From Anagrus nilaparvatae (taxonomy: Eukaryota; Arthropoda; Insecta; Hymenoptera; Mymaridae): a stretch of 64,000 bases of DNA. Made by a program: the position numbers and the translations under genes. Location: the NCBI GenBank assembly GCA_022575985.1, contig JAKSXM010000107.1, forward strand, positions 1,550,001 through 1,614,000, in the 5' to 3' direction. Of this stretch, positions 1,366 to 62,895 are shown piece after piece. How positions within the stretch are numbered: position 1 is the stretch's first letter; every line of letters begins with the position of its first letter. The notes under the pieces were generated by a model. It made no database searches. It worked only from the letters and a program-made list of their open reading frames with translations, and had not been told where the DNA came from.

Positions 1366-1450
1366 AAAATAATCCAGAAAGCTTCTTCGGGTATAAAAGT
1401 TCCCGGTTGATGCACCAATGTTATTTTCAGAAGCTTTCTGAATTATTGTT
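1366..1450. repeat. Inverted repeat around a plus-strand TATA-like box
   Basis: Arms of about 22 bp (around 1366-1387 and 1429-1450) are near-perfect inverted repeats ending in 'agaaagcttct' / 'agaagctttct'. The loop holds 'gggtataaaag' near 1389-1399, a good TATA box for plus-strand transcription. It may be a small terminal inverted repeat or a promoter hairpin. Confidence 0.5.
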
Positions 1451-1471
1451 CTTATTTTTTACGTAATAGGT

Positions 1472-1487
1472 GGCCCTGAAAAGGGCC
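1472..1487 (-). terminator. Exact histone mRNA 3' stem-loop, minus strand
   Basis: On the minus strand this reads GGCCCTTTTCAGGGCC followed by ACC, the consensus metazoan replication-dependent histone 3'-end stem-loop (6-bp stem, 4-base loop) with its usual ACC flank. A minus-strand TATA/CCAAT pair lies about 450 bp upstream, a normal histone transcript length. The DNA between does not encode a recognisable histone. Confidence 0.7.
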
Positions 1488-1753
1488 GGTGGATTTTTTA
1501 GCATTTGATGCGTGGCCCCAGCCACACGTTTTACACCCAACAATTCACAAGCATACAACAAATTCAATCACCAAGGTCACAAATACACATTCATACACAA
1601 ACATACAAAAGAGAAACAAAAACTTACAAACATGCGAGCACCTCGTGCTCAGGTGACTTCTCCTGGCCAGGAATATCAATGTCCACCTCTTCAAGCCTAC
1701 GAGCTCGGAAAATTGCACCAAGCGATTCAAACAATTACAGCTTACGAGCTGCT

Positions 1754-10675: not shown

Positions 10676-13600
10676 ATTTAAGGGCCTTTGGTGCAGAAGT
10701 ACTTAGGAAGCATTGGTGCAGAAGTAACTAGGGACCTATGGTGCAGAACTTCCTAAAGGCCTTTGGTACAGAAGTACCTAGGGACCTATGGTGCAGAAGT
10801 CTCTAAAGACCTTTGGTGCAGAAGTACCTAGGGAACTATGGTGCAGAAGTACTTAGGAAGCATTGGTGTAGGAGTACGTAGGGACCTATGGTGCAGAAGT
10901 ACCTAAGGACCTATGGTGCTGAACCCCCTAAAGGCCTTTGGTACAGAAGTACCTAAAAACCTTTGGTGCAGAAGTACTTAGGAAGCATTGGTGTAGAAGT
11001 ACCTAGGGACCTATGGTGCAGAAGTCTCTAAAGACCTTTGGTGCAGAAGTACTTAGGAAGCATTGGTGTAGAAGTACCTAGGGACCTATGGCGCAGAAGT
11101 CCCTAAAGACCTTTGGTGCAGAAGTACCTAGTGAGCATTGGTGCAGAAGTCCCTAAAGACCTTTGGTGCAGAAGTACCTAAAGACCTTTGGTGCAGAAGT
11201 ACCTAAAAACCTTTGGTGCAGAAGTACTTAGGAAGCATTGGTGTAGAAGTACCTAGGGACCTATGGTGCAGAAGTCCCTAAAGACCTTTGGTGCAGAAGT
11301 ACTTAGGGAGCATTGGTGCAAAAGTCCCTAAAGACCTTTGGTGCAGAAGTACCTAAAGACCTTTGGTGCAGAAGTACCTAGGGACCTATGGTGCAGAACC
11401 CCCTAAAGGCCTTTGGTACAGAAGTACCTAGGGACCTATGGTGCAGAAGTCTCTAAAGACCTTTGGTGCAGAAGTACCTAGGGACCTATGGTGCAGAAGT
11501 CTATAAAGACCTTTGGTGCAGAAGTACTTAGGAAGCATTGGTGTAGAAGTACCTAGGGACCTATGGTGCAGAAGTCCCTAAAGACCTTTGGTGCAGAAGT
11601 ACTTAGGGAGCATTGGTGCATAAGTCCCTAAAGACCTTTGGTGCAGAAGTACCTGAAGACATTTGGTGCAGAAGTACCTAAAAACCTTTGGTGCAGAAGT
11701 ACTTAGGAAGCATTGGTTTAGAAGTACCTAGGGACCTATGGTGCAGAAGTCCCTAAAGATCTTTGGTGCAGAAGTACTTAGGGAGCATTGGTGCAAAAGT
11801 CCCTAAAGACCTTTGGTGCAGAAGTACCTAAAGACCTTTGGTGCAGAAGTACCTAAAAACCTTTGGTGCAGAAGTACTTAGGAAGCATTGGTGTAGAAGT
11901 ACCTAGGGACCTATGGTGCAGAAGTCCCTAAAGACCTTTGGTGCAGAAGTACTTAGGGAGCATTGGTGCAGAAGTCCCTAAAGACCTTTGGTGCAGAATT
12001 ACCTAAAGACCTTTGGTGCAGAAGTACCTAGGGACCTATGGTGCAGAAGTCCCTAAAGACCTTTGGTGCAGAAGTACTTAGGGAGCATTGGTTCAGAAGT
12101 CCCTAAAGGCCTTTGGTACAGAAGTACCTAGGGACCTATGGTGCAGAAGTCTCTAAAGACCTTTGGTGCAGAAGTACCTAAAGACCTTTGGTGCAGAAGT
12201 ACCTAAAAACCTTTGGTGCAGAAGTACTTAGGAAGCATTGGTGTAGAAGTACCTAGGGACCTATGGTGCAGAAGTCCCTAAAGACCTTTGGTGCAGAAGT
12301 ACTTAGGGAGCATTGGTGCAAAAGTCCCAAAAGACCTTTGGTGCAGAAGTACCTAAAGACCTTTGGTGCAGAAGTACCTAGGGACCTATGGTGTAGAACC
12401 CCCTAAAGGCCTTTGGTACAGAAGTACCTAGGGACCTATGGTGCAGAAGTCTCTAAAGACCTTTGGTGCAGAAGTACCTAGGGACCTATGGTGCAGAAGT
12501 CTCTAAAGACCTTTGGTGCAGAAGTACTTAGGAAGCATTGGTGTAGAAGTACCTAGGGACCTATGGTGCAGAAGTCCCTAAAGACCTTTGGTGCAGAAGT
12601 ACTTAGGGAGCATTGGTGCATAAGTCCCTAAAGACCTTTGGTGCAGAAGTACCTGAAGACATTTGGTGCAGAAGTACCTAAAAACCTTTGGTGCAGAAGT
12701 ACTTAGGAAGCATTGGTTTAGAAGTACCTAGGGACCTATGGTGCAGAAGTCCCTAAAGACCTTTGGTGCAGAAGTACTTAGGGAGCATTGGTGCATAAGT
12801 CCCTAAAGACCTTTGGTGCAGAAGTACCTGAAGACATTTGGTGCAGAAGTACCTAAAAACCTTTGGTGCAGAAGTACTTAGGAAGCATTGGTTTAGAAGT
12901 ACCTAGGGACCTATGGTGCAGAAGTCCCTAAAGATCTTTGGTGCAGAAGTACTTAGGGAGCATTGGTGCAAAAGTCCCTAAAGACCTTTGGTACAGAAGT
13001 ACCTAAAGACCTTTGGTGCAGAAGTACCTAAAAACCTTTGGTGCAGAAGTACTTAGGAAGCATTGGTGTAGAAGTACCTAGGGACCTATGGTGCAGAAGT
13101 CCCTAAAGACCTTTGGTGCAGAAGTACTTAGGGAGCATTGGTGCAGAAGTCCCTAAAGACCTTTGGTGCAGAATTACCTAAAGACCTTTGGTGTAGAAGT
13201 ACCTAGGGACCTATGGTGCAGAAGTCCCTAAAGACCTTTGGTGCAGAAGTACTTAGGGAGCATTGGTTCAGAAGTCCCTAAAGGCCTTTGGTACAGAAGT
13301 ACCTAGGGACCTATGGTGCAGAAGTCTCTAAAGACCTTTGGTGCAGAAGTACCTAGGGAACTATGGTGCAGAAGTCTCTAAAGACCTTTGGTGCAGAAGT
13401 ACTTAGGAAGCATTGGTGTAGGAGTACCTAGGGACCTATGGTGCAGAAGTACCTAAGGACCTATGGTGCTGAAGTCTCTAAAGACCTTTGGTGCAGAAGT
13501 ACTTAGGAAGCATTGGTGTAGAAGTACCTAGGGACCTATGGTGCAGAAGTCTCTAAAGACCTTTGGTGCAGAAGTACTTAGGAAGCATTGGTGTAGAAGT

Positions 13601-15854
13601 ACCTAGGGACCTATGGTGCAGAAGTCCCTAAAGACCTTTGGTGCAGAAGTACTTAGGGAGCATTGGTGCATAAGTCCCTAAAGACCTTTGGTGCAGAAGT
13701 ACCTGAAGACATTTGGTGCAGAAGTACCTAAAAACCTTTGGTGCAGAAGTACTTAGGAAGCATTGGTTTAGAAGTACCTAGGGACCTATGGTGCAGAAGT
13801 CCCTAAAGATCTTTGGTGCAGAAGTACTTAGGGAGCATTGGTGCAAAAGTCCCTAAAGACCTTTGGTACAGAAGTACCTAAAGACCTTTGGTGCAGAAGT
13901 ACCTAAAAACCTTTGGTGCAGAAGTACTTAGGAAGCATTGGTGTAGAAGTACCTAGGGACCTATGGTGCAGAAGTCCCTAAAGACCTTTGGTGCAGAAGT
14001 ACTTAGGGAGCATTGGTGCAGAAGTCCCTAAAGACCTTTGGTGCAGAATTACCTAAAGACCTTTGGTGTAGAAGTACCTAGGGACCTATGGTGCAGAAGT
14101 CCCTAAAGACCTTTGGTGCAGAAGTACTTAGGGAGCATTGGTTCAGAAAACCCTAAAGGCCTTTGGTACAGAAGTACCTAGGGACCTATGGTGCAGAAGT
14201 CTCTAAAGACCTTTGGTGCAGAAGTACCTAGGGAACTATGGTGCAGAAGTCTCTAAAGACCTTTGGTGCAGAAGTACTTAGGAAGCATTGGTGTAGGAGT
14301 ACCTAGGGACCTATGGTGCAGAAGTACCTAAGGACCTATGGTGCTGAAGTCTCTAAAGACCTTTGGTGCAGAAGTACTTAGGAAGCATTGGTGTAGAAGT
14401 ACCTAGGGACCTATGGTGCAGAAGTCTCTAAAGACCTTTGGTGCAGAAGTACTTAGGAAGCATTGGTGTAGAAGTACCTAGGGACCTATGGTGCAGAAGT
14501 CCCTAAAGACCTTTGGTGCAGAAGTACCTAGGGAGCATTGGTGCAGAAGTCCCTAAAGACCTTTGGTGCAGAAGTACCTAAAGACCTTTGTTGCAGAAGT
14601 ACCTAAAAACCTTTGGTGCAGAAGTACTTAGGAAGCATTGGTGTAGAAGTACCTAGGGACCTATGGTGCAGAAGTCCCTAAAGACCTTTGGTGCAGAAGT
14701 ACTTAGGGAGCATTGGTGCAGAAGTCCCTAAAGACCTTTGGTGCAGAATTACCTAAAGACCTTTGGTGCAGAAGTACCTAGGGACCTATGGTGCAGAAGT
14801 CCCTAAAGACCTTTGGTGCAGAAGTACTTAGGGAGCATTGGTTCAGAAGTCCCTAAAGGCCTTTGGTACAGAAGTACCTAGGGACCTATGGTGCAGAAGT
14901 CTCTAAAGACCTTTGGTGCAGAAGTACCTAAAGACCTTTGGTGCAGAAGTACCTAAAAACCTTTGGTGCAGAAGTACTTAGGAAGCATTGGTGTAGAAGT
15001 ACCTAGGGACCTATGGTGCAGAAGTCCCTAAAGACCTTTGGTGCAGAAGTACTTAGGGAGCATTGGTGCAAAAGTCCCAAAAGACCTTTGGTGCAGAAGT
15101 ACCTAAAGACCTTTGGTGCAGAAGTACCTAGGGACCTATGGTGCAGAACCCCCTAAAGGCCTTTGGTACAGAAGTACCTAGGGACCTATGGTGCAGAAGT
15201 CTCTAAAGACCTTTGGTGCAGAAGTACCTAGGGACCTATGGTGCAGAAGTCTCTAAAGACCTTTGGTGCAGAAGTACTTAGGAAGCATTGGTGTAGAAGT
15301 ACCTAGGGACCTATGGTGCAGAAGTCCCTAAAGACCTTTGGTGCAGAAGTACTTAGGGAGCATTGGTGCATAAGTCCCTAAAGACCTTTGGTGCAGAAGT
15401 ACCTGAAGACATTTGGTGCAGAAGTACCTAAAAACCTTTGGTGCAGAAGTACTTAGGAAGCATTGGTTTAGAAGTACCTAGGGACCTATGGTGCAGAAGT
15501 CCCTAAAGATCTTTGGTGCAGAAGTACTTAGGGAGCATTGGTTCAGAAGTCCCTAAAGGCCTTTGGTACAGAAGTACCTAGGGACCTATGGTGCAGAAGT
15601 CCCTAAAGACCTTTGGTGCAGAAGTACTTAGGGAGCATTGGTGCAAAAGTCCCAAAAGACCTTTGGTGCAGAAGTACCTAAAGACCTTTGGTGCAGAAGT
15701 ACCTAGGGACCTATGGTGCAGAACCCCCTAAAGGCCTTTGGTACAGAAGTACCTAGGGACCTATGGTGCAGAAGTCTCTAAAGACCTTTGGTGCAGAAGT
15801 ACCTAGGGACCTATGGTGCAGAAGTCCCTAAAGACCTTTGGTGCAGAAGTACCT
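10676..15854 (+). repeat. 25-bp satellite array, block 1 (~207 units)
   Basis: The unit is 'ggtgcagaagtacctaaaga' plus 'ccttt', 25 bp. Four main variants alternate: ...acctagggacctat, ...ccctaaagaccttt, ...acttaggaagcatt and ...acctaaaaaccttt. Marker variants recur in the same multi-unit order ('acctgaagacattt', 'gtgctgaag', 'ttgttgcag'), showing higher-order repeats. Because 25 is not a multiple of 3 and every frame has frequent TAG/TAA, the array is not coding. There are no unique spacers. Confidence 0.9.
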
Positions 15855-16203
15855 ACATTGGTCCCTTATATGGTCTTTTGTCCACCATGTTAATTTTAAC
15901 CTTTTCCGCCTTGATTGCACCTAGCCCTTCATTGAATATTCTTGGGAATTCTCCCACCAATTTTCTGATATCTTCTTCCAGTTTTGCTTCGATTTGATAC
16001 AATAGTTTTTCTTGTACGAACTTAATCTTCGTTCCTTTAATTATTACTGATTGATCTATTATATCAATCTTCGCTTTAACTTCCTTCAGTAAGTTAATTC
16101 CGATTATCATATCGTTGTTCATCCATGGGACTACTAAAAATATCCATGATAGCATTTTATCCTTTAGTTTTATATTTAGATGTGCTTGCTCCTTTATTAA
16201 CAT
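15855..16203 (-). pseudogene. Duplicated protease/RT fragment
   Basis: An almost exact copy of 10061-10409 lies at an offset of 5,794 bp. It codes for the same 116-residue protease-tail segment on the minus strand and ends abruptly where the satellite begins at 15854. The left junction shows the shared phrase 'cattggt', also present in the satellite variant 'gcattggtg'. Confidence 0.85.
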
Positions 16204-16477
16204 GGAACATGTTTATAGGGAGGGGGTACTTCAAAACTGGAAAATTAAGGGGGAGGTCAAATACACGGTCTTTGTGAAACAGAAGTAGTGAAAGTAGAAG
16301 AGCGCCAAAATAATTCAAAAATTTCTATGCTAGTGCTTATGGTGCTCTTTTAGTGGGCGTGGTTTCACTACTTCTATTTCACAAAGAGCGAGTATGTCCT
16401 TTTTAAGGGGGGGGGACAAATTTGTCCTTTTTAAGGGGGGGGGGGGTCAAATGGGACTTAGAATATTTTCGATTTAA
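16204..16477 (+). repeat. Duplicated G-rich lead of the satellite element
   Basis: This is the second copy of 10410-10675, differing mainly in poly-G run length (two extra G). It includes the same 'gtgaaacagaagtagtgaaa' hairpin. Confidence 0.8.
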
Positions 16478-19400
16478 GGGCCTTTGGTGCAGAAGTACTT
16501 AGGAAGCATTGGTGCAGAAGTAACTAGGGACCTATGGTGCAGAACTTCCTAAAGGCCTTTGGTACAGAAGTACCTAGGGACCTATGGTGCAGAAGTCTCT
16601 AAAGACCTTTGGTGCAGAAGTACCTAGGGAACTATGGTGCAGAAGTACTTAGGAAGCATTGGTGTAGGAGTACGTAGGGACCTATGGTGCAGAAGTACCT
16701 AAGGACCTATGGTGCTGAACCCCCTAAAGGCCTTTGGTACAGAAGTACCTAAAAACCTTTGGTGCAGAAGTACTTAGGAAGCATTGGTGTAGAAGTACCT
16801 AGGGACCTATGGTGCAGAAGTCTCTAAAGACCTTTGGTGCAGAAGTACTTAGGAAGCATTGGTGTAGAAGTACCTAGGGACCTATGGCGCAGAAGTCCCT
16901 AAAGACCTTTGGTGCAGAAATACCTAGTGAGCATTGGTGCAGAAGTCCCTAAAGACCTTTGGTGCAGAAGTACCTAAAGACCTTTGGTGCAGAAGTACCT
17001 AAAAACCTTTGGTGCAGAAGTACTTAGGAAGCATTGGTGTAGAAGTACCTAGGGACCTATGGTGCAGAAGTCCCTAAAGACCTTTGGTGCAGAAGTACTT
17101 AGGGAGCATTGGTGCAAAAGTCCCTAAAGACCTTTGGTGCAGAAGTACCTAAAGACCTTTGGTGCAGAAGTACCTAGGGACCTATGGTGCAGAACCCCCT
17201 AAAGGCCTTTGGTACAGAAGTACCTAGGGACCTATGGTGCAGAAGTCTCTAAAGACCTTTGGTGCAGAAATACCTAGGGACCTATGGTGCAGAAGTCTAT
17301 AAAGACCTTTGGTGCAAAAGTACTTAGGAAGCATTGGTGTAGAAGTACCTAGGGACCTATGGTGCAGAAGTCCCTAAAGACCTTTGGTGCAGAAGTACTT
17401 AGGAAGCATTGGTGTAGAAGTACCTAGGGACCTATGGTGCAGAAGTCCCTAAAGACCTTTGGTGCAGAAGTACTTAGGGAGCATTGGTGCAGAAGTCCCT
17501 AAAGACCTTTGGTGCAGAATTACCTAAAGACCTTTGGTGCAGAAGTACCTAGGGACCTATGGTGCAGAAGTCCCTAAAGACCTTTGGTGCAGAAGTACTT
17601 AGGGAGCATTGGTTCAGAAGTCCCTAAAGGCCTTTGGTACAGAAGTACCTAGGGACCTATGGTGCAGAAGTCTCTAAAGACCTTTGGTGCAGAAGTACCT
17701 AAAGACCTTTGGTGCAGAAGTACCTAAAAACCTTTGGTGCAGAAGTACTTAGGAAGCATTGGTGTAGAAGTACCTAGGGACCTATGGTGCAGAAGTCCCT
17801 AAAGACCTTTGGTGCAGAAGTACTTAGGGAGCATTGGTGCAAAAGTCCCAAAAGACCTTTGGTGCAGAAGTACCTAAAGACCTTTGGTGCAGAAGTACCT
17901 AGGGACCTATGGTGCAGAACCCCCTAAAGGCCTTTGGTACAGAAGTACCTAGGGACCTATGGTGCAGAAGTCTCTAAAGACCTTTGGTGCAGAAGTACCT
18001 AGGGACCTATGGTGCAGAAGTCTCTAAAGACCTTTGGTGCAGAAGTACTTAGGAAGCATTGGTGTAGAAGTACCTAGGGACCTATGGCGCAGAAGTCCCT
18101 AAAGACCTTTGGTGCAGAAGTACTTAGGGAGCATTGGTGCATAAGTCCCTAAAGACCTTTGGTGCAGAAGTACCTGAAGACATTTGGTGCAGAAGTACCT
18201 AAAAACCTTTGGTGCAGAAGTACTTAGGAAGCATTGGTTTAGAAGTACCTAGGGACCTATGGTGCAGAAGTCCCTAAAGACCTTTGGTGCAGAAGTACTT
18301 AGGGAGCATTGGTTCAGAAGTCCCTAAAGGCCTTTGGTACAGAAGTACCTAGGGACCTATGGTGCAGAAGTCTCTAAAGACCTTTGGTGCAGAAGTACCT
18401 AGGGAACTATGGTGCAGAAGTCTCTAAAGACCTTTGGTGCAGAAGTACTTAGGAAGCATTGGTGTAGGAGTACCTAGGGACCTATGGTGCAGAAGTACCT
18501 AAGGACCTATGGTGCTGAAGTCTCTAAAGACCTTTGGTGCAGAAGTACTTAGGAAGCATTGGTGTAGAAGTACCTAGGGACCTATGGTGCAGAAGTCTCT
18601 AAAGACCTTTGGTGCAGAAGTACTTAGGTAGCATTGGTGTAGAAGTACCTAGGGACCTATGGTGCAGAAGTCCCTAAAGACCTTTGGTGCAGAAGTACCT
18701 AGGGAGCATTGGTGCAGAAGTCCCTAAAGACCTTTGGTGCAGAAGTACCTAAAGACCTTTGTTGCAGAAGTACCTAAAAACCTTTGGTGCAGAAGTACTT
18801 AGGAAGCATTGGTGTAGAAGTACCTAGGGACCTATGGTGCAGAAGTCCCTAAAGACCTTTGGTGCAGAAGTACTTATGGAGCATTGGTGCAGAAGTCCCT
18901 AAAGACCTTTGGTGCAGAATTACCTAAAGACCTTTGGTGCAGAAGTACCTAGGGACCTATGGTGCAGAAGTCCCTAAAGACCTTTGGTGCAGAAGTACTT
19001 AGGGAGCATTGGTTCAGAAGTCCCTAAAGGCCTTTGGTACAGAAGTACCTAGGGACCTATGGTGCAGAAGTCTCTAAAGACCTTTGGTGCAGAAGTACCT
19101 AAAGACCTTTGGTGCAGAAGTACCTAAAAACCTTTGGTGCAGAAGTACTTAGGAAGCATTGGTGTAGAAGTACCTAGGGACCTATGGTGCAGAAGTCCCT
19201 AAAGACCTTTGGTGCAGAAGTACTTAGGGAGCATTGGTGCAAAAGTCCCAAAAGACCTTTGGTGCAGAAGTACCTAAAGACCTTTGGTGCAGAAGTACCT
19301 AGGGACCTATGGTGCAGAACCCCCTAAAGGCCTTTGGTACAGAAGTACCTAGGGACCTATGGTGCAGAAGTCTCTAAAGACCTTTGGTGCAGAAGTACCT

Positions 19401-21616
19401 AGGGACCTATGGTGCAGAAGTCTCTAAAGACCTTTGGTGCAGAAGTACTTAGGAAGCATTGGTGTAGAAGTACCTAGGGACCTATGGTGCAGAAGTCCCT
19501 AAAGACCTTTGGTGCAGAAGTACTTAGGGAGCATTGGTGCATAAGTCCCTAAAGACCTTTGGTGCAGAAGTACCTGAAGACATTTGGTGCAGAAGTACCT
19601 AAAAACCTTTGGTGCAGAAGTACTTAGGAAGCATTGGTTTAGAAGTACCTAGGGACCTATGGTGCAGAAGTCCCTAAAGATCTTTGGTGCAGAAGTACTT
19701 AGGGAGCATTGGTTCAGAAGTCCCTAAAGGCCTTTGGTACAGAAGTACCTAGGGACCTATGGTGCAGAAGTCTCTAAAGACCTTTGGTGCAGAAGTACCT
19801 AAAGACCTTTGGTGCAGAAGTACCTAAAAACCTTTGGTGCAGAAGTACTTAGGAAGCATTGGTGTAGAAGTATCTAGGGACCTATGGTGCAGAAGTCCCT
19901 AAAGACCTTTGGTGCAGAAGTACTTAGGGAGCATTGGTGCAAAAGTCCCAAAAGACCTTTGGTGCAGAAGTACCTAAAGACCTTTGGTGCAGAAGTACCT
20001 AGGGACCTATGGTGCAGAACCCCCTAAAGGCCTTTGGTTCAGAAGTACCTAGGGACCTATGGTGCAGAAGTCTCTAAAGACCTTTGGTGCAGAAGTACCT
20101 AGGGACCTATGGTGCAGAAGTCTCTAAAGACCTTTGGTGCAGAAGTACTTAGGAAGCATTGGTGTAGAAGTACCTAGGGACCTATGGTGCAGAAGTCCCT
20201 AAAGACCTTTGGTGCAGAAGTACTTAGGGAGCATTGGTGCATAAGTCCCTAAAGACCTTTGGTGCAGAAGTACCTGAAGACATTTGGTGCAGAAGTACCT
20301 AAAAACCTTTGGTGCAGAAGTACTTAGGAAGCATTGGTTTAGAAGTACCTAGGGACCTATGGTGCAGAAGTCCCTAAAGATCTTTGGTGCAGAAGTACTT
20401 AGGGAGCATTGGTGCAAAAGTCCCTAAAGACCTTTGGTGCAGAAGTACCTAAAGACCTTTGGTGCAGAAGTACCTAAAAACCTTTGGTGCAGAAGTACTT
20501 AGGAAGCATTGGTGTAGAAGTACCTAGGGACCTATGGTGCAGAAGTCCCTAAAGACCTTTGGTGCAGAAGTACTTAGGGAGCATTGGTGCAGAAGTCCCT
20601 AAAGACCTTTGGTGCAGAATTACCTAAAGACCTTTGGTGCAGAAGTACCTAGGGACCTATGGTGCAGAAGTCCCTAAAGACCTTTGGTGCAGAAGTACTT
20701 AGGGAGCATTGGTTCAGAAGTCCCTAAAGGCCTTTGGTACAGAAGTACCTAGGGACCTATGGTGCAGAAGTCTCTAAAGACCTTTGGTGCAGAAGTACCT
20801 AGGGAACTATGGTGCAGAAGTCTCTAAAGACCTTTGGTGCAGAAGTACTTAGGAAGCATTGGTGTAGGAGTACCTAGGGACCTATGGTGCAGAAGTACCT
20901 AAGGACCTATGGTGCTGAAGTCTCTAAAGACCTTTGGTGCAGAAGTACTTAGGAAGCATTGGTGTAGAAGTACCTAGGGACCTATGGTGCAGAAGTCTCT
21001 AAAGACCTTTGGTGCAGAAGTACTTAGGAAGCATTGGTGTAGAAGTACCTAGGGACCTATGGTGCAGAAGTCCCTAAAGACCTTTGGTGCAGAAGTACCT
21101 AGGGAGCATTGGTGCAGAAGTCCCTAAAGACCTTTGGTGCAGAAGTACCTAAAGACCTTTGTTGCAGAAGTACCTAAAAACCTTTGGTGCAGAAGTACTT
21201 AGGAAGCATTGGTGTAGAAGTACCTAGGGACCTATGGTGCAGAAGTCCCTAAAGACCTTTGGTGCAGAAGTACTTAGGGAGCATTGGTGCAAAAGTCCCT
21301 AAAGACCTTTGGTGCAGAAGTACCTAAAGACCTTTGGTGCAGAATACCTAAAAACCTTTGGTGCAGAAGTACTTAGGAAGCATTGGTGTAGAAGTACCTA
21401 GGGACCTATGGTGCAGAAGTCTCTAAAGACCTTTGGTGCAGAAGTACCTAGGGTGCAGAAGTCTCTAAAGACCTTTGGTGCAGAAGTACCTAGGGAGCAT
21501 TGGTGCAGAAGTACCTAGGGACCTATGGTGCAGAAGTCCCTAAAGACCTTTGGTGCAGAAGTACCTAGGGACCATTGGTGCAGAAGTCTCTAAAGAACTT
21601 TAGTGCAGAAGTACTT
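16478..21616 (+). repeat. 25-bp satellite array, block 2 (~205 units)
   Basis: Same monomer family as block 1. The first ~0.8 kb aligns with block 1 at the 5.79-kb offset. Further in, the order of variants differs (for example the 'acctgaagacattt' marker sits at other distances, in multiples of 25 bp), so internal rearrangement followed the large duplication. The last units (21420-21616) are degenerate and include one short unit. Confidence 0.9.
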
Positions 21617-26958: not shown

Positions 26959-27195
26959 ATTTTTTGCCTTCCCGGGCGTAAAACTCGTGTGTAAAGAATT
27001 TTCTGAACTCATTCTACGTCTAGGTGGCAAAAAATAGTGTAAGCATCATGGGCGAAATACTTTAGACACGAGCGTGAACACTTATCACTCGTGCTAGTGC
27101 TCACGCTAGTGCCGAAACTTTTACGCCCTTGATACTTAAAATATACTATATCTCTATATATTATAAAGTTATAATCGCTGCCGCCGCTGTCGAAT

Positions 27196-27434
27196 GACAC
27201 CTTTGGGGCAATCTGACACTTTTGCGCCAATCTGATACTTTTGGGCCAATCTGACACTTTATGGCCACTCTGACACTTTTGAGAAACTCTGACACTTTTG
27301 GGCCATTCTGACACTTTTGGGCCAATGTGGTACTTTTGGGCCAATCTAACACTTTTGGGCCAATCTGACACTTTTGGGCCAATATGGTACTTTTGCGCCA
27401 TACTGGTCCTTTTGGGCCAATCTGGTACTTTTCA
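27196..27434 (+). repeat. 19-bp minisatellite, ~12.5 units
   Basis: The unit is 'gacacttttgggccaatct', with variants in most copies. Because 19 is not a multiple of 3, all three frames read through similar peptides (…GPKVSDWPKSVRLAQK…), which produces long but meaningless minus-strand ORFs at 27009-27401 and 27161-27478. Confidence 0.9.
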
Positions 27435-35250: not shown

Positions 35251-35259
35251 CATACTACT

Positions 35260-36430
35260 GTAAGGCTTGACGTGTCGTTTTTTATTATAGTCTAATTCCT
35301 TAGATTACGCTACTGTAAGGCTTGACGTGTCGTTTTTTATTATAGTCTACTCCCTTAGGTTACGCTACTGTAAGGGTTATCGTGTCGTTATTTTATTATA
35401 GCCTATTTCCTTAGGTTACGCTACTGTAAGGCTGGACTTGTCGTTTTTTATTATAGTCTACTTCCTTAGGTTACGCTACTGTAAGGCTTGACGTGTTGTT
35501 TTTTATTATAGCCTACTTCCTTAGGTTATGTTAGTGTAAGGTTTGTCGTGTCGTTATTTTATTATAGCCTATTTCCGTAGGTTACGCTACTGTAAGGCTT
35601 GACGTGTCGTTTTTTATTATAGCCTATTTCCTTAGGTTACGCTACTGTAAGGCTTGACGTGTCGTTTTTTATTATAGTCTACTTCCTTAGGTTACGCTAC
35701 TGTAAGGGTTATCATGTCGTTATTTTATTATAGCCTATTTCCTAAGAATACGCTACTGTAAGGCTTGACGTGTCGTTTTTTATTATAGTCTACTTCCTTA
35801 GGTTATGTTAGTGTAAGGCTTGACGTGTCGTTTTTTGATTATAGCCTATTTCTTTAGGTTACGCTACTGTAAGGCTTGACGTGTCATTTTTTATTATAGT
35901 CTACTTCCTTAGGTTACGCTACTGTAAGGGTTATCATGTCGTTATTTTATTATAGCCTATTGCTATAATAAAAAAAAGACATGTCAAGCATTACACTGGC
36001 GTAACCTAAGGAAGTAGGCTATAAAGAAAACGACACGTCAAGCCTTACAGTAGCGTAACCTAAGGAAGTAGACTATAATAAAAAACGACACGTCAAGCCT
36101 TACAGTAGCGTAACCTACGGAAATAGGCTATAATAAAATAACGACATGATAACCCTTACAGTAACGTAACCTAAGGAAGTAGACTATAATAAAAAAACGA
36201 CACGTCAAGCCTTACACTAACATAACCTAAGGAAGTAGACTATAATAAAAAACGACACCACAAGCCTTACAGTAGCGTAACCTAAAGAAATAGGCTATAA
36301 TAAATAAAGACACGTCAAGCCTTACAGTAGCGTAACCTAAGGAAGTAGACTATAATAAAAAACGACACGTCAAGCCTTACAGTAGCGTAACCTACGGAAA
36401 TAGGCTATAATAAAATAACGACACGACAAT
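35260..36430. repeat. 55-bp minisatellite, head-to-head
   Basis: The unit is 'gctactgtaaggcttgacgt' / 'gtcgttttttattatag' / 'tctacttccttaggttac', about 55 bp. About 13 units run forward (35260-35957) and about 8 run in reverse (35958-36430). Orientation flips once, at the palindromic phrase 'attatagcctattgctataat'. Related phrases occur in the centre of the MITE at 30415-31342. Confidence 0.9.
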
Positions 36431-40644: not shown

Positions 40645-41750
40645 ACATGGAACATAATCATTGAATGGGTTATTAAAAAGTCCGGCTCGGCAGATACTCC
40701 AGTCAAAATACGGGGGGGGGGTTGGACTTACGGTTGCGAATACGAGAGTTGCTCTAGAATAGGTTTTTTGGATCGCTGAACACGAAAATTGGGGTCATTT
40801 GGCAAAGAAAATGCGGGTTCACCCTTAAATTTGCAAAAACTACTCCCAAAAGGGGGTATTTTTGATGTATTCGCCTTTTGGGGGTAGTTTTAACTAATAT
40901 AAGGGTGAAATATTAATATTTTATTAAAAAATCCATGAAATTCGTTTTCAGCAGTCCAAGAAACCCTTGTGGACCTAATCTTGACGGAAAAAGTGCAGAA
41001 ACAGCAAAAACACCCCTTTTGGGGGTAGTTTTCGGTAATTCAGGGGTGTTATATTAATTATTCATAAAAAAATCCATGAAAATCGTTTTCAGCGACCCAA
41101 AAACCTTTGTGAACCAAATCTGCCCGCAAAAAGTGCGAAAACACCCCTTTTGGGGGGTAGTTTTAGCTAATTTAAGGGTGATTTATTAGTTTTACCTTCA
41201 AAAATCATTGAGATTCTTAATTAGCGATCCAAAAAACCCTTAGAAACCAATACTTTGATAAATCTATCGACTTAAAACGCGAATACATCAAAAATACCCC
41301 TTTTTGGGGGAAGTTTTTGCAAATTTAAGGGCGAAGCCCCATATTTTTAGCCAAATGACCCTGATTTTAGTGTTCAGCGACTCAAAAAACCTGTATTAGA
41401 GCAAATCTCGTATTCGCAACCGTAAGTCCACCCAAACCCGTATTTTGACTGGAGTAAGAGGGTGGGTAAAAAAGTGACGTTTTTAGGGGGGGGGCAAAAT
41501 ACAAGGCGATTCAGAGGGGATGAATTGTTTGTTTATTAGTTAACCAATCGCAGCTAAGATTACAAGAATCAACAAATAGCGATGCACCTAATAAAATAAA
41601 ATTCACGTCCCGCTCGGGACCAATGTGTATTGTAGTTTTAAGGGGGGCGGGGTTGAAATAGTGACGACGTTTTTAAGGGAGGGGGTAAAATGGACTTTGA
41701 AAATTTACGATTAAGGCACTTTGAATAATTTGAAGTGCGAGTCAGATCAG
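40645..41750 (+). mobile_element. CATGGAACATG element interrupted by a second element
   Basis: The left end 'aacatggaacataatcattg' to 'aaaaagtccggctcggcag' matches the minus strand of 6600-6640. After the nested insert it resumes with 'gggtaaaaaagtgacgtttt', poly-G and 'ggactttgaaaatttacg', as expected for the same family. Confidence 0.7.
40695..41455. mobile_element. Nested 761-bp TIR element (TACTCCAGTCAAAATACG ends)
   Basis: Terminal inverted repeats of ~115 bp begin 'tactccagtcaaaatacggg'. The interior is a ~175-bp tandem repeat built on 'cccttttgggggtagtttt' and 'cagcgacccaaaaa'. AGA flanks both sides (40692-40694 and 41456-41458), a possible 3-bp target duplication. A relative sits inside the Penelope element at 60388-61104. 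Confidence 0.75.
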
Positions 41751-45410: not shown

Positions 45411-46547
45411 TAATAGAAATGTACGTATGATTGCATGCTTGTTATCTGTGATATCTGTGGCATATTGAAGTATTAAGATCATTATTTGAGGGACCTTAGT
45501 GCCAGCTAGTTGGCAGGATATTTTTGTTATATTTCATAAATAAACAAGTGTGCTTATTTCTACCTAATCTAATCACATTGTGTTCAATAATCATAGAACA
45601 AAAGAACCCTGAATACTCAATCCCTGGGTGACCGTCACATTACATTAATTTTCAATAAATGAAAACTTTTGTTCGATTACCCAGCTAAAAATTTGATATG
45701 TTGATTTTTTTGAACAACCCTAACGTAAAGGCCACCCTGTAATGCAATAATTTGCATTATAAAAGTGAAGTATTATAATAATTTTTATATTTAAATATTT
45801 TATGATTTCGTGCGTCTTTCCTAATTAAGAAACAGCGAATTTTAACTAAGCTAGACGCCGGGAGCACAGAAAAAGTATGAACACGCGGGAGTGCGACACT
45901 CTCGTCTCGGCCACTGAACAGTAAACAGCTATTGTCAGAAAGAGCTATCTAAGAGAGGGAGAGAGCATGCTCTCCCCTGTGTAATTTAGTGTATGTTTAT
46001 GCACCAGGAAGTATGGCTCCAAATACAGCTAAAATATTAGAAGCTCCAGCCAAACCAGAAAGTTAATATTTAGTAACCAGTACCAGTAACCAGGCCAAGT
46101 AAACAGAAGTCCAGGAAGGAAGATTTAAGCCAGGCCTGACAAGAAAAAGAGTTTCAATAAAAGGTACCTCGCGTTATTATTATTTCGTTTTATTTCATTA
46201 TTAATTTTCATTTATTAAAATTATTTTCACGCGGTTACGCGTATGTATGAGTGAAATTTATGCGTATGAGTGTGTGAAAAATCATCTATGTGTGAGTGCG
46301 CGTGTCGAGAATATTCGTGGTAATTTTAGATAATTTTATTTTATATTTTACATACACGAGTATAATCGACACCCGTGCGCGCACATACGATTCAATAAAA
46401 TATGGCGTCCATCAAAATAATTAAGGCCCAGGAGGTTAATCTAAATATTCCTTTTATTTCTTAGAATGGCCAATCTAGTTATAAGTTTTGTAAATAATTA
46501 TAAAATATAATCTTTTTTTATTATTAAATTCGTTTCTGTTTTTGTTA
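45411..46547. other. Unassigned; GC-richer island at 45850-46180
   Basis: The island has purine-rich transcribed-looking sequence, a 17-codon ORF (MAPNTAKILEAPAKPES) at 46013, and an AATAAA near 46155. Together with 'ataaaatatggcgtccatca' near 46397, it could be an old solo LTR, but no partner LTR or TG...CA pair could be fixed. Confidence 0.3.
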
Positions 46548-46813
46548 CCTACCGCTGCACTTGTATAAGTACTTTTTCTTATTTTTGCTGCTTTTCATGA
46601 TTTATAATGGCTAAAATAACTTTTGGATACCAAATTAAATACTAAAATCCCCTTCGTTACAAAAAGAAACTATTTTCCTTTGAAATTTTCAATAATTTTC
46701 CGGAAAATTTTTAAAAATGGCAATAAAAAAATCAATTTTTTTTTTTAATTTAAAATAATTCTTAAGTCAATTTAAAGTTAATTTGGCAGTAAAAGGGTTA
46801 ATATTTTAATAAA
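46548..46813 (+). repeat. Left terminal inverted repeat of the RAG1-like transposon
   Basis: Inverse of about 49784-50058, with small indels in the T runs. Shared blocks include 'aaaatccccttcgttacaaa' and 'ttttccggaaaatt'. The outermost bases are CCTACC, not the CAC of RAG/Transib ends. Confidence 0.85.
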
Positions 46814-47345
46814 TATATGAATTTTCATACGAGTTTCTTCTCTGTTCAGCGTCACCCATTCTTGAAAAATATGTATAAAAATATATATATTATTTTTTTA
46901 TCAATCGATTCAAAATAAAAATAAAGTAACACTTTAAAATATACATGTCCAGTTAAGAAAATTTTTGAAGACTTAAAGTCTATACACAATAAAATTTTCA
47001 TATAATATACTTTCTGATAGAAAATTTTGATAAGCCTGCTTTACAGAATTATAATCTTTTAGGGAGTAATAAAATTCAAGATATCAAACGGTATCTTGTG
47101 ATATCTCTGTGGAAATTCCAGAGAGATATCATACTGTGGAAATCACAAAGAGATACCGCGAGTTTCAATTTGAAAAATTCTAAATAATTTTTCTATTTCT
47201 TAGATTAGATTAATATAATGTTAATCATTCTGTTTGTTGTATCAACTTATTATTCTATAAAAAAAATTCATTTAAATTATAAATTCAGTTTTTTTCTTCA
47301 GTTTGATAAAGCAGCATCTATAACTTAGTGAAGAAAAATTAAAAA

Positions 47346-49571
47346 ATGAATAGAAATAAATGTTCTCACTATGAGAATAGAAAAAAGATTTGTGCCCCGT
47401 GTGGCAAAAAAATCTCCTTTGGCAAAATTGATCCAAATAAGTTTCTTATTAATAAAAAAACTGAAAATTTGATTAAAAAATTTATAAAAAATGATTTCAA
47501 TATTGAGGATTCGAAATTTCCATTAAGTATTTGTAGAACTTGTTATCTTACTCTGCTTGATTGCGAAAAAGGTCTTGATAAGAGGCCTTTGCAAGATTTT
47601 CCAAACTATAAAGACATACTTTTACCAAAAGAGACGCGATTTTTTAAAGATACATGTAACTGCTTTATATGTATAACTGCTCGGTTTAAGGGACATATCA
47701 AAACTATGAAAGGTAAGGGCCACAAAAGAAATCTAAAAAAAGTGATTCTTAAATCCAATGGACTTTATGGAAATGGGTCGTTACAACCTGATCAGCGCAT
47801 TGATTCTAAAGTAACAAATGAAAAAAGAACCTGCCAGTTACCTATATGTAACAAATGTTTTCAAATTGTTGGTAAAGGTATTTTTCACCCATGTAATAAT
47901 GCAAAAGAAAATTTAATGAAATTAGTTGAAATGCTACCTGAAAGCAATCAACAGCAAATAGCAACAACCATTATAAAGAATTCTCAGGAAACTTGCGTAG
48001 ATGATGAGTTAAGCTTATCTACTAGTGGTCGAAAATTAAGAATTATACTAAATCCTACTGAAAAAAAAGATATTAAATTTAACGAAGAAAGTTTAGATAA
48101 TTTTCGTAATATTACAGGAAGTTCAATTAACAAAATGAAAATAATCACTAATTTTATTAGATGTAAAGTTGGAAGAAAGTCTATTCCACCAAATTATTTA
48201 GATCATATGTCAGAAAAATCAAAAATATTAAAAGATGTCTATAAACATGGTACTTATGAATTTGACTGTTCAGATGAAAATACATCTATTAAACAAAAAA
48301 GGCCTGTTGTATATGCAGATGCTGAAGAACTTCTTGATACAGTTATCGAGGAAAGAAATTTAGTAGGAGATGTTATAATTAAGGTAATGGCAGACGGAGG
48401 TCAAGGCTTTTTTAAAATAAGTTTAACCATCCTCCCTGAAAATTATTCGCTTGAAACAGATACTTCTATCGAGAATACTGATGATTACGTAGAGGATGAT
48501 AATTTGATTTTTAATAATTTAAATAATCAAAAAAGAACACTCTACTCCGAAGGTGGTAGCATGAGTAAAAAGAATAAGCTTACTAGCGTTCATAAATTAA
48601 TTTTGTTATGTGTAGTTCCACAAATCCAAGAATCATATGAGAATATTAAACTATTGTTTGACTTAACAAAAATAAATAATATTCCATTTAAATTTGCTGC
48701 AGATTTCAAGCTTTTATTAATTATAAATGGACAGCAAACTGCATCGGCAACATTTCCTTGTCCATACTGCTTTGTAACATTAGGTCATTTAAGAAGTTTT
48801 CAAAATCCGACTAATGAAATGATCGAGCTGGCAAAATTAATTAAGGATGACTTAGATGTTGAAAATCCTATACGATTAAAAACTTATGGAGACTTAAGAC
48901 GTGACTATGAAAAATTTTGTCTTTCTGGAAAAAATAAAAAAGAAGGCAAAAATTTCCATAGTACAATTAATCCTCCTCTTTTTAGTGAAAATGATGATAT
49001 AAAAGTATTACAAAAATGTGTTATACCCGAATTACATGTTTTGCAAGGGCTTGTAAATCATCTCTTTTGGCATGGATTAATTCCTCTTTTAGGTGAAGAA
49101 AAAGCCATGTTGTGGCCAAAAAAATTAAATGTTGTAGCGCAAAATTATCATGGATATGCATTTGAAGGTAATGCATGCAGAAAGTTGCTTAAAGAAGCTG
49201 ATAAATTAAATGATCCGAAAATATACGTTGATGTAGGATATTTTTCAGTTGTTCCTTATATCCATGCTTACAAAGCTATGAATAAGCTTGTAGATTGCTG
49301 TTTTACTTCTGGGAAACGTGGAATGTTAATAAATTCTCATATTAATGAATTGCGTAATGCACTAAAAAGTATTGGTGACATTTCAGAAACTTTGAAAATT
49401 CATGTTATACTCGAACATGTAGAAAGTTGTTTGCAATTTATTGATAACAATAATGGTTTAGGATTTTGGTCAGAGCAAAGTGGAGAAGCTGTTCACCATG
49501 AATTTCTAAAATTTTGGAGCAGGTACAAATTAAATTGTATAGAGGATATAAATTATGCGCCAAGACTTTAA
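47346..49571 (+). CDS. RAG1-like DDE transposase, 741 aa, intact
   Basis: Uninterrupted ATG-to-TAA frame. Catalytic core: D350 (IIKVMADGGQGFFKIS), D453 (KFAADFKLLLIINGQ) and E710 (GLGFWSEQSGEAVHHEF) correspond to mouse RAG1 D600, D708 and E962. Zinc ligands C472/C475 (CPYC) and H686/H691 (IHVILEH) correspond to RAG1 C727/C730 and H937/H942. Spacings here are D453-C472 19, C-C 3 and H-H 5, the same as in RAG1; H691-E710 is 19 against 20. The block FEGNACRKLL matches RAG1 NGNFARKLM. The N-terminus is Cys-rich: ICRTCYL (61-67) and TCNCFICITARFKG (103-116) resemble RAG1 FCHNCWS and SCDICNTARRGLK, and a further set is C163/C168/C171/H181/C183. No RING finger is evident. Length is between Transib (~700) and RAG1 (~1,040). 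Predicted role: cut-and-paste transposition at its own TIRs. Confidence 0.88.
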   Translation: MNRNKCSHYENRKKICAPCGKKISFGKIDPNKFLINKKTENLIKKFIKNDFNIEDSKFPLSICRTCYLTLLDCEKGLDKRPLQDFPNYKDILLPKETRFFKDTCNCFICITARFKGHIKTMKGKGHKRNLKKVILKSNGLYGNGSLQPDQRIDSKVTNEKRTCQLPICNKCFQIVGKGIFHPCNNAKENLMKLVEMLPESNQQQIATTIIKNSQETCVDDELSLSTSGRKLRIILNPTEKKDIKFNEESLDNFRNITGSSINKMKIITNFIRCKVGRKSIPPNYLDHMSEKSKILKDVYKHGTYEFDCSDENTSIKQKRPVVYADAEELLDTVIEERNLVGDVIIKVMADGGQGFFKISLTILPENYSLETDTSIENTDDYVEDDNLIFNNLNNQKRTLYSEGGSMSKKNKLTSVHKLILLCVVPQIQESYENIKLLFDLTKINNIPFKFAADFKLLLIINGQQTASATFPCPYCFVTLGHLRSFQNPTNEMIELAKLIKDDLDVENPIRLKTYGDLRRDYEKFCLSGKNKKEGKNFHSTINPPLFSENDDIKVLQKCVIPELHVLQGLVNHLFWHGLIPLLGEEKAMLWPKKLNVVAQNYHGYAFEGNACRKLLKEADKLNDPKIYVDVGYFSVVPYIHAYKAMNKLVDCCFTSGKRGMLINSHINELRNALKSIGDISETLKIHVILEHVESCLQFIDNNNGLGFWSEQSGEAVHHEFLKFWSRYKLNCIEDINYAPRL

Positions 49572-49783
49572 TAGGCTGTAGTTGAATTTTCACTGCATAT
49601 CTAAATTTTATCTTTTCTTAATTAAGGCTTACACATCAATAAGACACACACAAAAACAACCCTAACACACACACACACACCCACTTACTTTTTACACATA
49701 TGGAATCAGGTATCCACCACGTCCACGTCGTTGATTCTGGGTAATGCTAAGAGTGGAAATACGTATTAAAATTTTTATATAAT
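49572..49783 (+). other. Transposon trailer with CA microsatellite
   Basis: Contains an (AC)n run near 49664-49682 and no ORF. Confidence 0.5.
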
Positions 49784-50058
49784 ATTAAAATATTAACCCT
49801 TTTACTGCCAATTTAACATTAAATTGACTTAAAAATTATTTTCTATTGAAAAAAAATTTTTTTAAAAAAATTGTTTTTTTTATTGCCATTTTTAAAAATT
49901 TTCCGGAAAATTATTGAAAATTTCAAAGGAAAATAGTTTCTTTTTGTAACGAAGGGGATTTTAGTATTTAATTTGGTATCCAAAAGTTATTTTAGCCATT
50001 ATAAATCATGAAAAGCAGCAAAAATAAGAAAAAGTACTTATACAAGTGCAGCGGTAGG
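49784..50058 (-). repeat. Right terminal inverted repeat of the RAG1-like transposon
   Basis: Inverse of 46548-46813, ending ...GCAGCGGTAGG directly before the GTTA duplication. Confidence 0.85.
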
Positions 50059-50062
50059 GTTA

Positions 50063-59901: not shown

Positions 59902-60387
59902 CTAAGAATTTGTCTTGAAAAAACGACACATTGTTTTAAATACCGGCTTATATGGACGATGTAGTTTATTTACGTCATCTTTGGAATTTAACGGATAGGG
60001 TTGTTGGTGCATATGAGCTAACTCAGAAATCGTCCGTTTTCTGTAAACAGGCTCGATATCAATAATTAGCGGCGATTTCCAATCCATAATATGCCCATTT
60101 TTACAATGTTTAGGTATCACCTCATTAACTTCGTTTTTAACATCGCGTCTATGTTTATTTACCCGATACCTTAAAGCTTTTTTTGTTTCCCCAACATATG
60201 AGGCGTATAAGATGGGCAAAATGTTAAACTGTTTCATAAGGTGCAAAATTTCATCAAAATAATGCATTTTTAGTGGTAATTTTATTTTTAGTTTTTGTGC
60301 ATAAAGTCGGCTGCGTCTGTCTCTCAAGTTAATACCGTCGTGATGAGAGTTCACAAATTTCCGTTTTTTGATATATTTATTTATGAA
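59902..60387 (-). pseudogene. GIY-YIG endonuclease domain of the Penelope-like element
   Basis: The minus frame rejoins the RT thumb end at HFINKYIKKRKFVN and then holds the endonuclease: ILYASYVGETKKALRYRV (Y-x-x-YVG-E-T, the GIY-YIG signature; residues 75-90 of the frame), R89/H93 (RVNKHRRDV), a GH pair (KNGHIMDW) and the catalytic-type Glu in ISELAHM. The closing PLNSKDDVNKL matches the usual 'LN...D..N' end. It would nick target DNA to prime reverse transcription. The apparent ATG at 60429 lies in the inserted element, so the true protein was a fusion with the RT upstream. Confidence 0.8.
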
Positions 60388-61104
60388 ATGCATACTCCAG
60401 TAAAAATACGGTTTTGGTGGTATAATCACCTACCACTACCAGATTTGGTCTACTATATGTTTTTTGGGTCGCTGATCACGAATTTCGGGGTCATTTCTAT
60501 GAGAAATGGGTGGAACACCCTTAAATTTGCAAAAACTACCCCTGAAAGGGGGTATTTTTTATGTATTTGAATTTCATACTCCAGTAAAAATACGTTTTTG
60601 GTGGTATAATCACCTACCACTACCAGATTTGGTCTACTATAGGTTTTTTGGGTCAGTGATCAAGAATTTCGAGGTGTTTTCTATGAAAAGTTAATATTTC
60701 ACTCCTTAATTAGCAAAATAAACCCCTAAAAAGGGGGTGTTTTTGCTATTTTGGCAGTTTAAGCGTTCAGAAACGGTTCTAATAGGTTTTTTTGGGTCGC
60801 TGAACAAGAATATTGTGGTATTTTTTGTTAAAAATTAATTTCTCACCCTTAAATTAAGAGAAACTACCCCTAAAAAGTTGTTTTTGCTACTTTCGCTCTT
60901 TCAATTTAAGGGTGAAAAATTAAGTTTTAATAAAAAATTTCCCCAAAATTCTTGTTCAGCGACCCAAAAAACCCATTTGAACCTAATCTGAACGCTCAAA
61001 GAGCAGAAGTAGCAAAAAACAACTTTTTAGGGATGGTTTTGCAAATTTAAGGGTGAAAAATTAATTTTTAATAAAAATTTCCCCAAAATTCGTAATCAGC
61101 GACC
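60388..61104. mobile_element. Insertion related to the 40695-41455 TIR element
   Basis: Begins 'tactccagtaaaaatacggt', repeated at 60578. It contains the same 'gggtcgctgatcacgaattt' and 'cccttaaatttgcaaaaact' phrases. The right end stops at 'cagcgacccataac' without a terminal repeat, so this copy is truncated or was rearranged on insertion. Confidence 0.7.
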
Positions 61105-62400
61105 CATAACATATCCATAACTAAGTCCGCAAAAAGAGGTGATATTGGTGATCCCATGGGAGACCCCAAAATCTGTTTATAAACTTTGCCCTTGAAGGTG
61201 AAAAATGTATTATTGAATATAAATCTAACCGTATCGATAACATCTTCAAAGGGTAATGGACACTTGCGTCTAATTTCATCACATCGATGGTCCAAACTCT
61301 GAATTACAAGTTCCACCGAAATATTAGTAAAAAGTGATTGTACATCTAATGAAACTAAGATGTAATCATCCGGTATATTAATGTTTTTTAACTTATTTCG
61401 TAAATCATTGCTATTTTTTACATGAGATTTCGGTAACGCGCAGGAATCGGATAAAAATTGATTAAGAAATTTGGCTACGAGGTAGACTACACTATCCACA
61501 TCTGAAGTTATAGGTCGGTCCGGATATCCTAATTTCTGTAGTTTAATAACCGCATAAAATCTAGCTAATACAGTGTTGGTTCGCGTGAGCTCTCTATAAT
61601 GATATTGTTTCCCTAATATGCCCAAATCGTTCCAATAATGTAGTATAGAACCGCATACTTTCTGTAAATTTTCTAAAAATCTAACACACTTATTACTTTC
61701 CCGTATGTACCGATAAGTCCTTACATCTGACAATAACTCATAAACTTTGCCATCATAATCGGTTTCAAACATTAAAATAAATGTACTACCTTTATCAGCA
61801 TTGACCACTGTTAAATTCGGATTATCTCTAAAAAATTTTTTTGTAATATTAAGTTTATTTTTGAAAATTTTATCATCAATACTCATATATTTTTTATTTT
61901 TAATTGCATTATTTAAAGTATTAGCAAATTTGCCATGGAATTCATTGATAGTTTTATTATCCATTAAATTAGTATTATTATTTCTATTATTACTGTTATT
62001 ATTATTTCTATTATTTACATTGTTATTCGCGATTCTAGTATTATTACAATATTCTACGTACTGCAAAGTATGTTCTACATCTTTAAAAATATCAAATATG
62101 TCAGACTTTTTAAGGTCAGCATTAAACCCAAATTTAGGGCCCAATGACAGCACCTCTACGACTTCCTGTGGTACTTCGATGTCTGTAAGATTTTTAAACC
62201 ATTTATCTTTTAATTTAATTACTTCGCGATCAATTTCTGTGTCAGTAGTGCATACGGCATTTGAATTTCTATTAAATTTGTTAGATAATAAAATGTTATG
62301 CCTACGACTAATGCTTTCAAATCTGTCAGTTTGAGTAGCAAAGAATTTATTTTTTAGATTATTATTATATATTAATGTTAGAGTTTTTTATAAAATTTTT
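61105..62400 (-). pseudogene. Reverse transcriptase of the Penelope-like element, core missing
   Basis: The minus frame is open from about 62395 and contains FATQTDRFESISRRHNILLS, an Asn-rich run, LTVVNADKGSTFILMFETDY (the Penelope 'ADKG' block), VIKLQKLGYPDRPITSDVDS, LVSLDVQSLFTNI with the motif A Asp, and GSPMGSPISPLFADLVMD (motif B). The frame stops matching at ...LVMDM, where the insertion begins. Motif C (YVDD) and roughly 170 residues of palm/thumb are absent on the far side too. A reported start at 62153 is a GTG; the frame really extends upstream. The Asn-rich stretch comes from an ATT/AAT microsatellite. Confidence 0.82.
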
Positions 62401-62790
62401 TATCGAGTCTGACACTTTATTCAAGTATTTTATATGCAAACAAATATCCGTGATTTCCGTATTTAATAAATTTTTACAAAAATTTGCAGTATTTTTTTCA
62501 AAAATTTTCATAACTGAATTTGAATAAAATTGTATATTATTCCTAAGTTTATTATCATTATTTGAGATATGTTTCGGAACCTCATCGTATGTATGGCAAT
62601 GTAATAAATAACGCCGACGAGCAAGAGAAATTGCCAATTCTTTTTGTATGCTCATAAAGTCCTTAAAATAGCCAGCATCTTGATCACCATAAACACTTTG
62701 AATAAATTTTATAAATCCCAAATTTATTGGTTGGTTGGTTCTCGGTCCACAACCATTATCTTGAATATTATCACTGCTTCTATTTTCCAT
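62365..62790 (-). pseudogene. N-terminal part of the Penelope-like polyprotein
   Basis: ATG at 62790; 141 residues including NQPINLGFIKFIQSVYGDQD and ARRRYLLHCHTYDEVPKHIS, ending in a stop at 62365. The RT frame overlaps in another register (…TLIYNNLKNKFF…), so a single frameshift near 62370-62400, beside two T runs, separates the two. The position fits the N-terminal extension of Penelope ORFs. Confidence 0.65.
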
Positions 62791-62895
62791 TTTTATTAAT
62801 TTATAGAATATTTTTTGAATTTATTGACCAAATGGAATAAAATAAAAAAAATTTTATGTATAGTCTACAAAAATTTTTTTATTGCTGTTGTTAAA

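Follow-up and report, generated by a model that had tools for sequence, protein, structure and literature searches.

A 3.5-kb DNA transposon with a predicted RAG1/Transib-type transposase, most likely of a Chapaev-like lineage, in Anagrus nilaparvatae

We analysed a 64,000-nucleotide stretch of the genome of the wasp Anagrus nilaparvatae (contig JAKSXM010000107.1, positions 1,550,001 to 1,614,000 of the forward strand), here called the window and numbered from its first letter. It contains a 3.5-kb cut-and-paste DNA transposon which very probably belongs to the CACTA/Mirage/Chapaev/Transib (CMCT) clade, to which RAG1 also belongs, and within it most likely to a Chapaev-like lineage with members in several insects. 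The anatomy of the transposon and the conservation of its transposase residues are established, and the transposase is predicted to have a fold of the RAG1/Transib type. An earlier note on this DNA had described the transposase only; it had missed the conserved zinc domain at the N-terminus of the protein, as well as the terminal inverted repeats and the 4-bp repeat that flanks them.

The element spans 46548-50058 (3511 bp) and carries long inverted repeats (~300 bp) at both termini, which read CCTACC...GGTAGG. By blastn the left and right arms are 90.9% identical over a 309-column alignment, and their 184 outermost bp agree without a mismatch; because the two ends are nearly identical, recent movement of the element is suggested. 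Both repeats are abutted by GTTA. When flank lengths of 2-12 were tried, identical abutting flanks occurred only at length 4, and a chance abutting match of 4-10 bp was found in 1.26% of 20,000 random site pairs from the window. These results support a 4-bp GTTA target-site duplication, seen in a single copy of the element; blastn (1e-5) detected no second copy of the element or of its flanks within the window. Apart from the transposase frame there is no frame of at least 80 codons inside 46548-50058, and hence no RAG2-like gene of that kind, although one built of short exons was not searched for. The features of the element are given below; residue counts refer to alignment A2, whose 46 rows include the transposase itself (P0001).

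46544..46547, no strand: target-site duplication GTTA, left copy, 4 bp, abutting the inverted repeat
46548..46843, plus strand: left terminal inverted repeat, outer end CCTACCG
47346..49571, plus strand: transposase frame, 741 amino acids (P0001), ATG at 47346 to TAA at 49571
47346..47672, plus strand: N-terminal zinc domain, C16/C19, C63/C66 and C104/C106/C109, in 46/46 rows
47847..47894, plus strand: second zinc-type motif, C168-x2-C171...H181-x-C183; C168, C171 and H181 in 46/46 rows, C183 in 45/46
48069..49568, plus strand: predicted RAG1-type core, residues 242-741
48393..48395, plus strand: catalytic aspartate D350, taken as mouse RAG1 D600, 46/46
48702..48704, plus strand: catalytic aspartate D453, mouse RAG1 D708, 46/46
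48759..48770, plus strand: zinc ligands C472 and C475 (C(2)C motif), 46/46 each
49032..49037, plus strand: LH motif L563-H564, mouse RAG1 L794-H795, 46/46 each
49401..49418, plus strand: zinc ligands H686 and H691 (H(4)H motif), 46/46 each
49473..49475, plus strand: E710, the glutamate named in the earlier note; glutamate in 37 of 46 rows, glycine in five, cysteine and threonine in one each, a gap in two
49485..49487, plus strand: likely catalytic glutamate E714, mouse RAG1 E962; E in 44/46 rows, gap in 2
49750..50058, minus strand: right terminal inverted repeat
50059..50062, no strand: target-site duplication GTTA, right copy, 4 bp

The transposase has at least 130 homologues at E <= 1e-3 among 5.8 billion clustered proteins, a lower bound because scoring was confined to the 7982 candidates with the most words in common with it. 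The best 20 are 49-59% identical to it, with 19 covering 99-100% of the query and one covering 88%. Species names are attached to 13 of the 120 homologues listed, and all 13 are insects, including beetles (Psylliodes, Brassicogethes and Carabus) and wasps (Leptopilina and Eretmocerus). Searches seeded with P0110 and P0131 yielded 34 and 20 proteins, respectively, the query counted. Alignment rows were hand-picked and mostly full-length: A1, an earlier set of 40 rows, comprises P0001 and 39 of the 120 listed homologues; A2, P0001 and 45 matches from the P0001, P0110 and P0131 searches; A4, 12 of the 20 proteins of the P0131 search; and A5, seven of the P0110 search. A4 represents a sister family which is deeply split from the P0001 family (~25% identity) and aligns with it at E 5e-112 over 650 columns. 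In a midpoint-rooted tree of the 46 rows, P0001 groups with P0003, P0005 and P0006 with a local support of 0.977, and some deeper nodes are weak (0.26-0.29). Scans of genome contigs for relatives gave none that was confirmed. Among the distant relatives, P0146 matches the Pfam family DUF1280 (PF06918), to which no function is assigned, just above the curated cut-off (25.8 vs 25 bits), and P0147 matches it below the cut-off. The P0146 match lies ahead of the catalytic domain and P0001 itself has none; DUF1280 may be a fragment of such transposases.

The frame is open from ATG to TAA, in agreement with the earlier reading of 741 uninterrupted codons, and the zinc ligands and spacings reported from it are likewise confirmed. 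The D-D, D-C, C-C and H-H distances are 103, 19, 3 and 5 residues, compared with 108, 19, 3 and 5 in mouse RAG1 (D600, D708, C727, C730, H937 and H942). In the 40 rows of A1, C472 and L563 are present in 39, and D350, D453, C475, H564, H686 and H691 in all. Profile alignments place D453 opposite D708, as they do its equivalent in the sister family, whose LH motif also falls opposite that of RAG1. D350 sits on a predicted strand (343-352) and would correspond to D600, a position which the profile alignments do not reach. Both aspartates proposed earlier as catalytic acids are confirmed to be present, whereas E710 is probably not the catalytic glutamate and E714 probably is. In the structure model E714 lies within a helix (711-727) and E710 outside it, and a profile alignment sets E714 opposite E962; glutamine replaces glutamate at this position in three RAG1 chains, and further RAG1 entries are titled E962Q. 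Since residues 242-741 match the fold, the three acids D350, D453 and E714 would be expected to converge in space.

The copy had been called intact, but two in-frame stop codons back to back at 49569-49574 close the frame and remove a 12-residue C-terminal tail which is kept in 42 of the 46 rows (it is absent from P0001, P0023, P0130 and P0148). The element is thus a nearly complete copy which has lost a conserved C-terminal tail. Because of this loss, it is uncertain from the sequence whether the shortened protein would be active.

The structure overlay recommended in the earlier note gave RAG1 and HzTransib as the best structural matches of the predicted model (Foldseek, VIA-align), with ~13% identity in the structural alignment to RAG1, and the transposase fold is accordingly predicted to be of the RAG1/Transib type. 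The fold matches include no Chapaev structure, so that their ranking cannot separate the CMCT clades, and nothing was concluded from the lack of other DDE families among them. At the profile level, the sister family A4 aligned with mouse RAG1 707-1006 over 245 columns (E 3.3e-4, probability 38%), and with the core alone none of 100 shuffles scored as well (best 24.9 vs 39.8 observed; reversed 17.9). A1 and A2 matched mouse RAG1 over short core stretches only: A1 with D453 and C472/C475 opposite D708 and C727/C730 (E 0.25, probability 0.2%), and A2 with H686/H691/E714 opposite H937/H942/E962 (E 0.039, probability 1.3%). The label of RAG1-family transposase given in the earlier note can be retained in the broad sense of a RAG1/Transib-type fold and the A4-RAG1 alignment, but not in the sense of narrow membership.

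The N-terminal zinc domain is probably of the Chapa type. It gives a profile match to mouse RAG1 97-218 and resembles RAG1 motifs C1-C3, and a passage of PMC4411706 describes the N-terminal region of RAG1 as related to Chapa. There is a weaker likeness to ZAD (zf-AD), a domain of insect transcription factors that shares two CxxC pairs and may have a similar small fold. Pfam zf-AD matches were found in 15 of the 40 A1 members (best E 8.2e-05; the four scores shown all fall below the cut-off) and not in P0001, and a model of the N-terminal region, based on a window fragment and 46 matches (A3), had ZAD structures as its best, weak fold matches. Counting against a link with ZAD, RAG1 1-389 gave no Pfam zf-AD match at E values up to 10, a range in which the filters drop most matches above 0.1. 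None of the papers searched joined ZAD with Chapaev, ZAD with RAG1 and zinc fingers, or ZAD with RAG1 and transposases. We regard it as a tentative and rather doubtful proposition that the RAG1 N-terminal zinc module, the Chapa-type domain and insect ZAD form one homologous family.

Placement of the element relies on definitions which we take from excerpts of the papers cited. PMC12730594 describes the C(2)C and H(3-4)H motifs as shared by RAG1 and by EnSpm/CACTA, Mirage, Chapaev, Transib, Plavaka, ESTA and Lanisha elements. Because they are common to the CMCT clade, the spacings do not single out RAG1, and they cannot serve as the proof of RAG1 kinship for which they had been offered; the motifs lead to placement in the CMCT clade and not on the RAG1 branch. 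The element has the further residues of the CMCT definition in that source (D350, D453 and E714 beside C472/C475 and H686/H691), its GTTA repeat, in one copy, lies within the 2- to 5-bp range of duplications, and its predicted model has the RAG1/Transib-type fold, a criterion of our own. Chapaev elements are described as encoding the C(2)C, LH and H(4)H motifs, ending in CAC and generally making duplications of 3-4 bp (PMC4079192), and Chapaev3 occurs in insects, including a fly (PMC3630058). The element resembles Chapaev and Chapaev3 in all three motifs, in a duplication of 3-4 bp (one copy) and in having a single transposase gene; its N-terminal zinc domain, probably of the Chapa type, may be a further likeness. 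The element differs in its ends, which are CAC...GTG there and CCTACC...GGTAGG here; formal membership of Chapaev is therefore not claimed.

Several observations weigh against this placement. The 5'-CA..TG-3' ends that are usual in the CMCT clade, if not strictly defining, are lacking, as is the CAC terminus reported to be invariable in Chapaev; the 4-bp duplication is known from one copy; and the Chapaev-like lineage is read from architecture, with Chapaev and Transib compared by description. Direct profile alignments to RAG1 gave low HHalign probabilities (0.2 to 38%), and for the core of the P0001 group none of 100 shuffles was as good, the best reaching 26.0 vs 26.1 observed. Sequence and profile searches of the PDB with P0001, A1 and A2 returned no RAG1 or Transib. 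The profile search recommended in the earlier note found no Pfam family in P0001, and RAG1 is not among the 25 of 41 families shown for the 40 A1 members.

The last result also argues against a true RAG1-family element, either Transib proper or a RAG1L transposon that has lost its RAG2L gene, which we consider improbable. It is true that the model finds its best structural matches in RAG1 and HzTransib, that the N-terminal zinc domain is RAG1-like, that Transib is present in arthropods (PMC7204232) and that one scheme ranks Chapaev as a clade within a wide 'Transib superfamily' (PMC4411706), but the fold matches do not distinguish between clades. Transib makes 5-bp target-site duplications (PMC7204232, PMC8355894), and according to PMC4411706 and PMC8355894, the latter of which treats N-RAG-TP and Transib, canonical Transib is without a RAG1-like N-terminal domain. 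In contrast, the element here has an N-terminal zinc domain with cysteines conserved in all 46 rows, a 4-bp flanking repeat, and CCTACCG in place of the CAC end that resembles a recombination signal sequence heptamer. PMC7204232 describes RAG-like transposons as making 5-bp duplications, having termini of the CAC type and carrying a gene like RAG2; the element shares with this group the D, D and E of the core and the zinc ligands of the C2/H2 site, but neither its ends nor its duplication length, and has no RAG2-like or other second frame of 80 codons or more. It differs from RAG1, ProtoRAG and TransibSU in these three respects and in that P0001 has no Pfam RING match. In addition, an excerpt of PMC7204232 lists Arthropoda as a phylum without RAG-like sequences.

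A separate CMCT lineage beside Chapaev, recognisable by a zinc domain resembling ZAD, by duplications of 4 bp and by termini reading CCTACC...GGTAGG, is a less than even prospect that we keep in view as an unlikely but serious one. It is a sharper form of the Chapaev-like reading; the two overlap, and their likelihoods are not additive. The departure of the termini from the CAC rule speaks for it, as do the deep split from the sister family and the 107 of 120 listed homologues that carry no species name. Against this, the element is a single copy, its motifs are as described for Chapaev and its N-terminal domain fits. That the frame is a host gene domesticated from such a transposon is very improbable. 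Its long open frame and the absence of a second copy from the window would suit a host gene, but the outer 184 bp of the ends are identical with GTTA on both sides, the C-terminal tail is cut by two stops, and many divergent relatives exist elsewhere.

If the element is a Chapaev-like CMCT transposon, its movement can be outlined from the conserved residues and the predicted fold. The transposase would bring the two ~300-bp ends together, probably acting as a dimer aided by the zinc-rich N-terminal domain, and D350, D453 and E714, forming an active site of RNase-H type, would cut both ends. The cut ends would then be joined to target strands staggered by 4 bp, giving rise to the GTTA duplication, and the C472/C475-H686/H691 zinc site would brace the domain, as in RAG1. 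We infer in the same way that 4-bp duplication may be the rule for the family.

Other repeats and retroelements were also noted in the window. An 11-kb tandem array of 25-bp-based units (10681-21614; GC 43-46% vs ~28-30% in the surroundings) seems to have split a gypsy-like element within its protease region, because it sits between gag-like (22965-22063, minus strand, by eye) and protease (22219-21590, minus strand, Pfam RVP) frames on one side and a frame with a protease end and reverse-transcriptase start (10418-9891, minus strand, by eye) on the other. A 55-bp unit forms two adjoining arrays in opposite orientation (35255-35961 and 35962-36429), which could fold into a giant hairpin at 35255-36429. 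The region 59902-62820 (minus strand) has the look of a Penelope-type retroelement, with a reverse transcriptase frame (Pfam RVT_1 below cut-off) and a separate frame containing a stretch, YVGETKKALRYRVNKH, which we take to be like a GIY-YIG endonuclease and which has no Pfam match. An inverted repeat at 40720-41433, with arms of 160 nt that are 88% complementary and 394 nt between them, is possibly a small non-autonomous transposon. A 19-bp unit, TGACACTTTTGGGCCAATC, is repeated 12.5 times at 27195-27432 within a minus-strand frame of 140 codons. The Rfam Histone 3' stem-loop is matched at 1447-1492 (minus strand; 35.1 bits vs a threshold of 34); inspection by eye showed no clear histone frame in its vicinity.

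In conclusion, the window holds a well-preserved RAG1-cousin transposon of insect type, described here with its anatomy. RAG1 cousins of this kind, Chapaev-like transposons in an insect-type genome, are already known. The earlier note saw a bearing on the origin of V(D)J recombination outside deuterostomes, yet a publication of 2020 (PMC7204232, in excerpt) already reported RAG-like transposons from cnidarians and intact ones from protostomes (molluscs and a nemertean), and the element by itself does not alter current views of V(D)J recombination. The deep alignment assembled around it could help to root the RAG1/Transib tree. In addition, the likeness of the N-terminal domain to RAG1 C1-C3 and to ZAD provides a testable lead on the origin of two zinc domains: if a single homologous family were borne out, the zinc-finger regulators of insects that carry ZAD would descend from CMCT transposases, as would the N-terminal part of the V(D)J recombinase.
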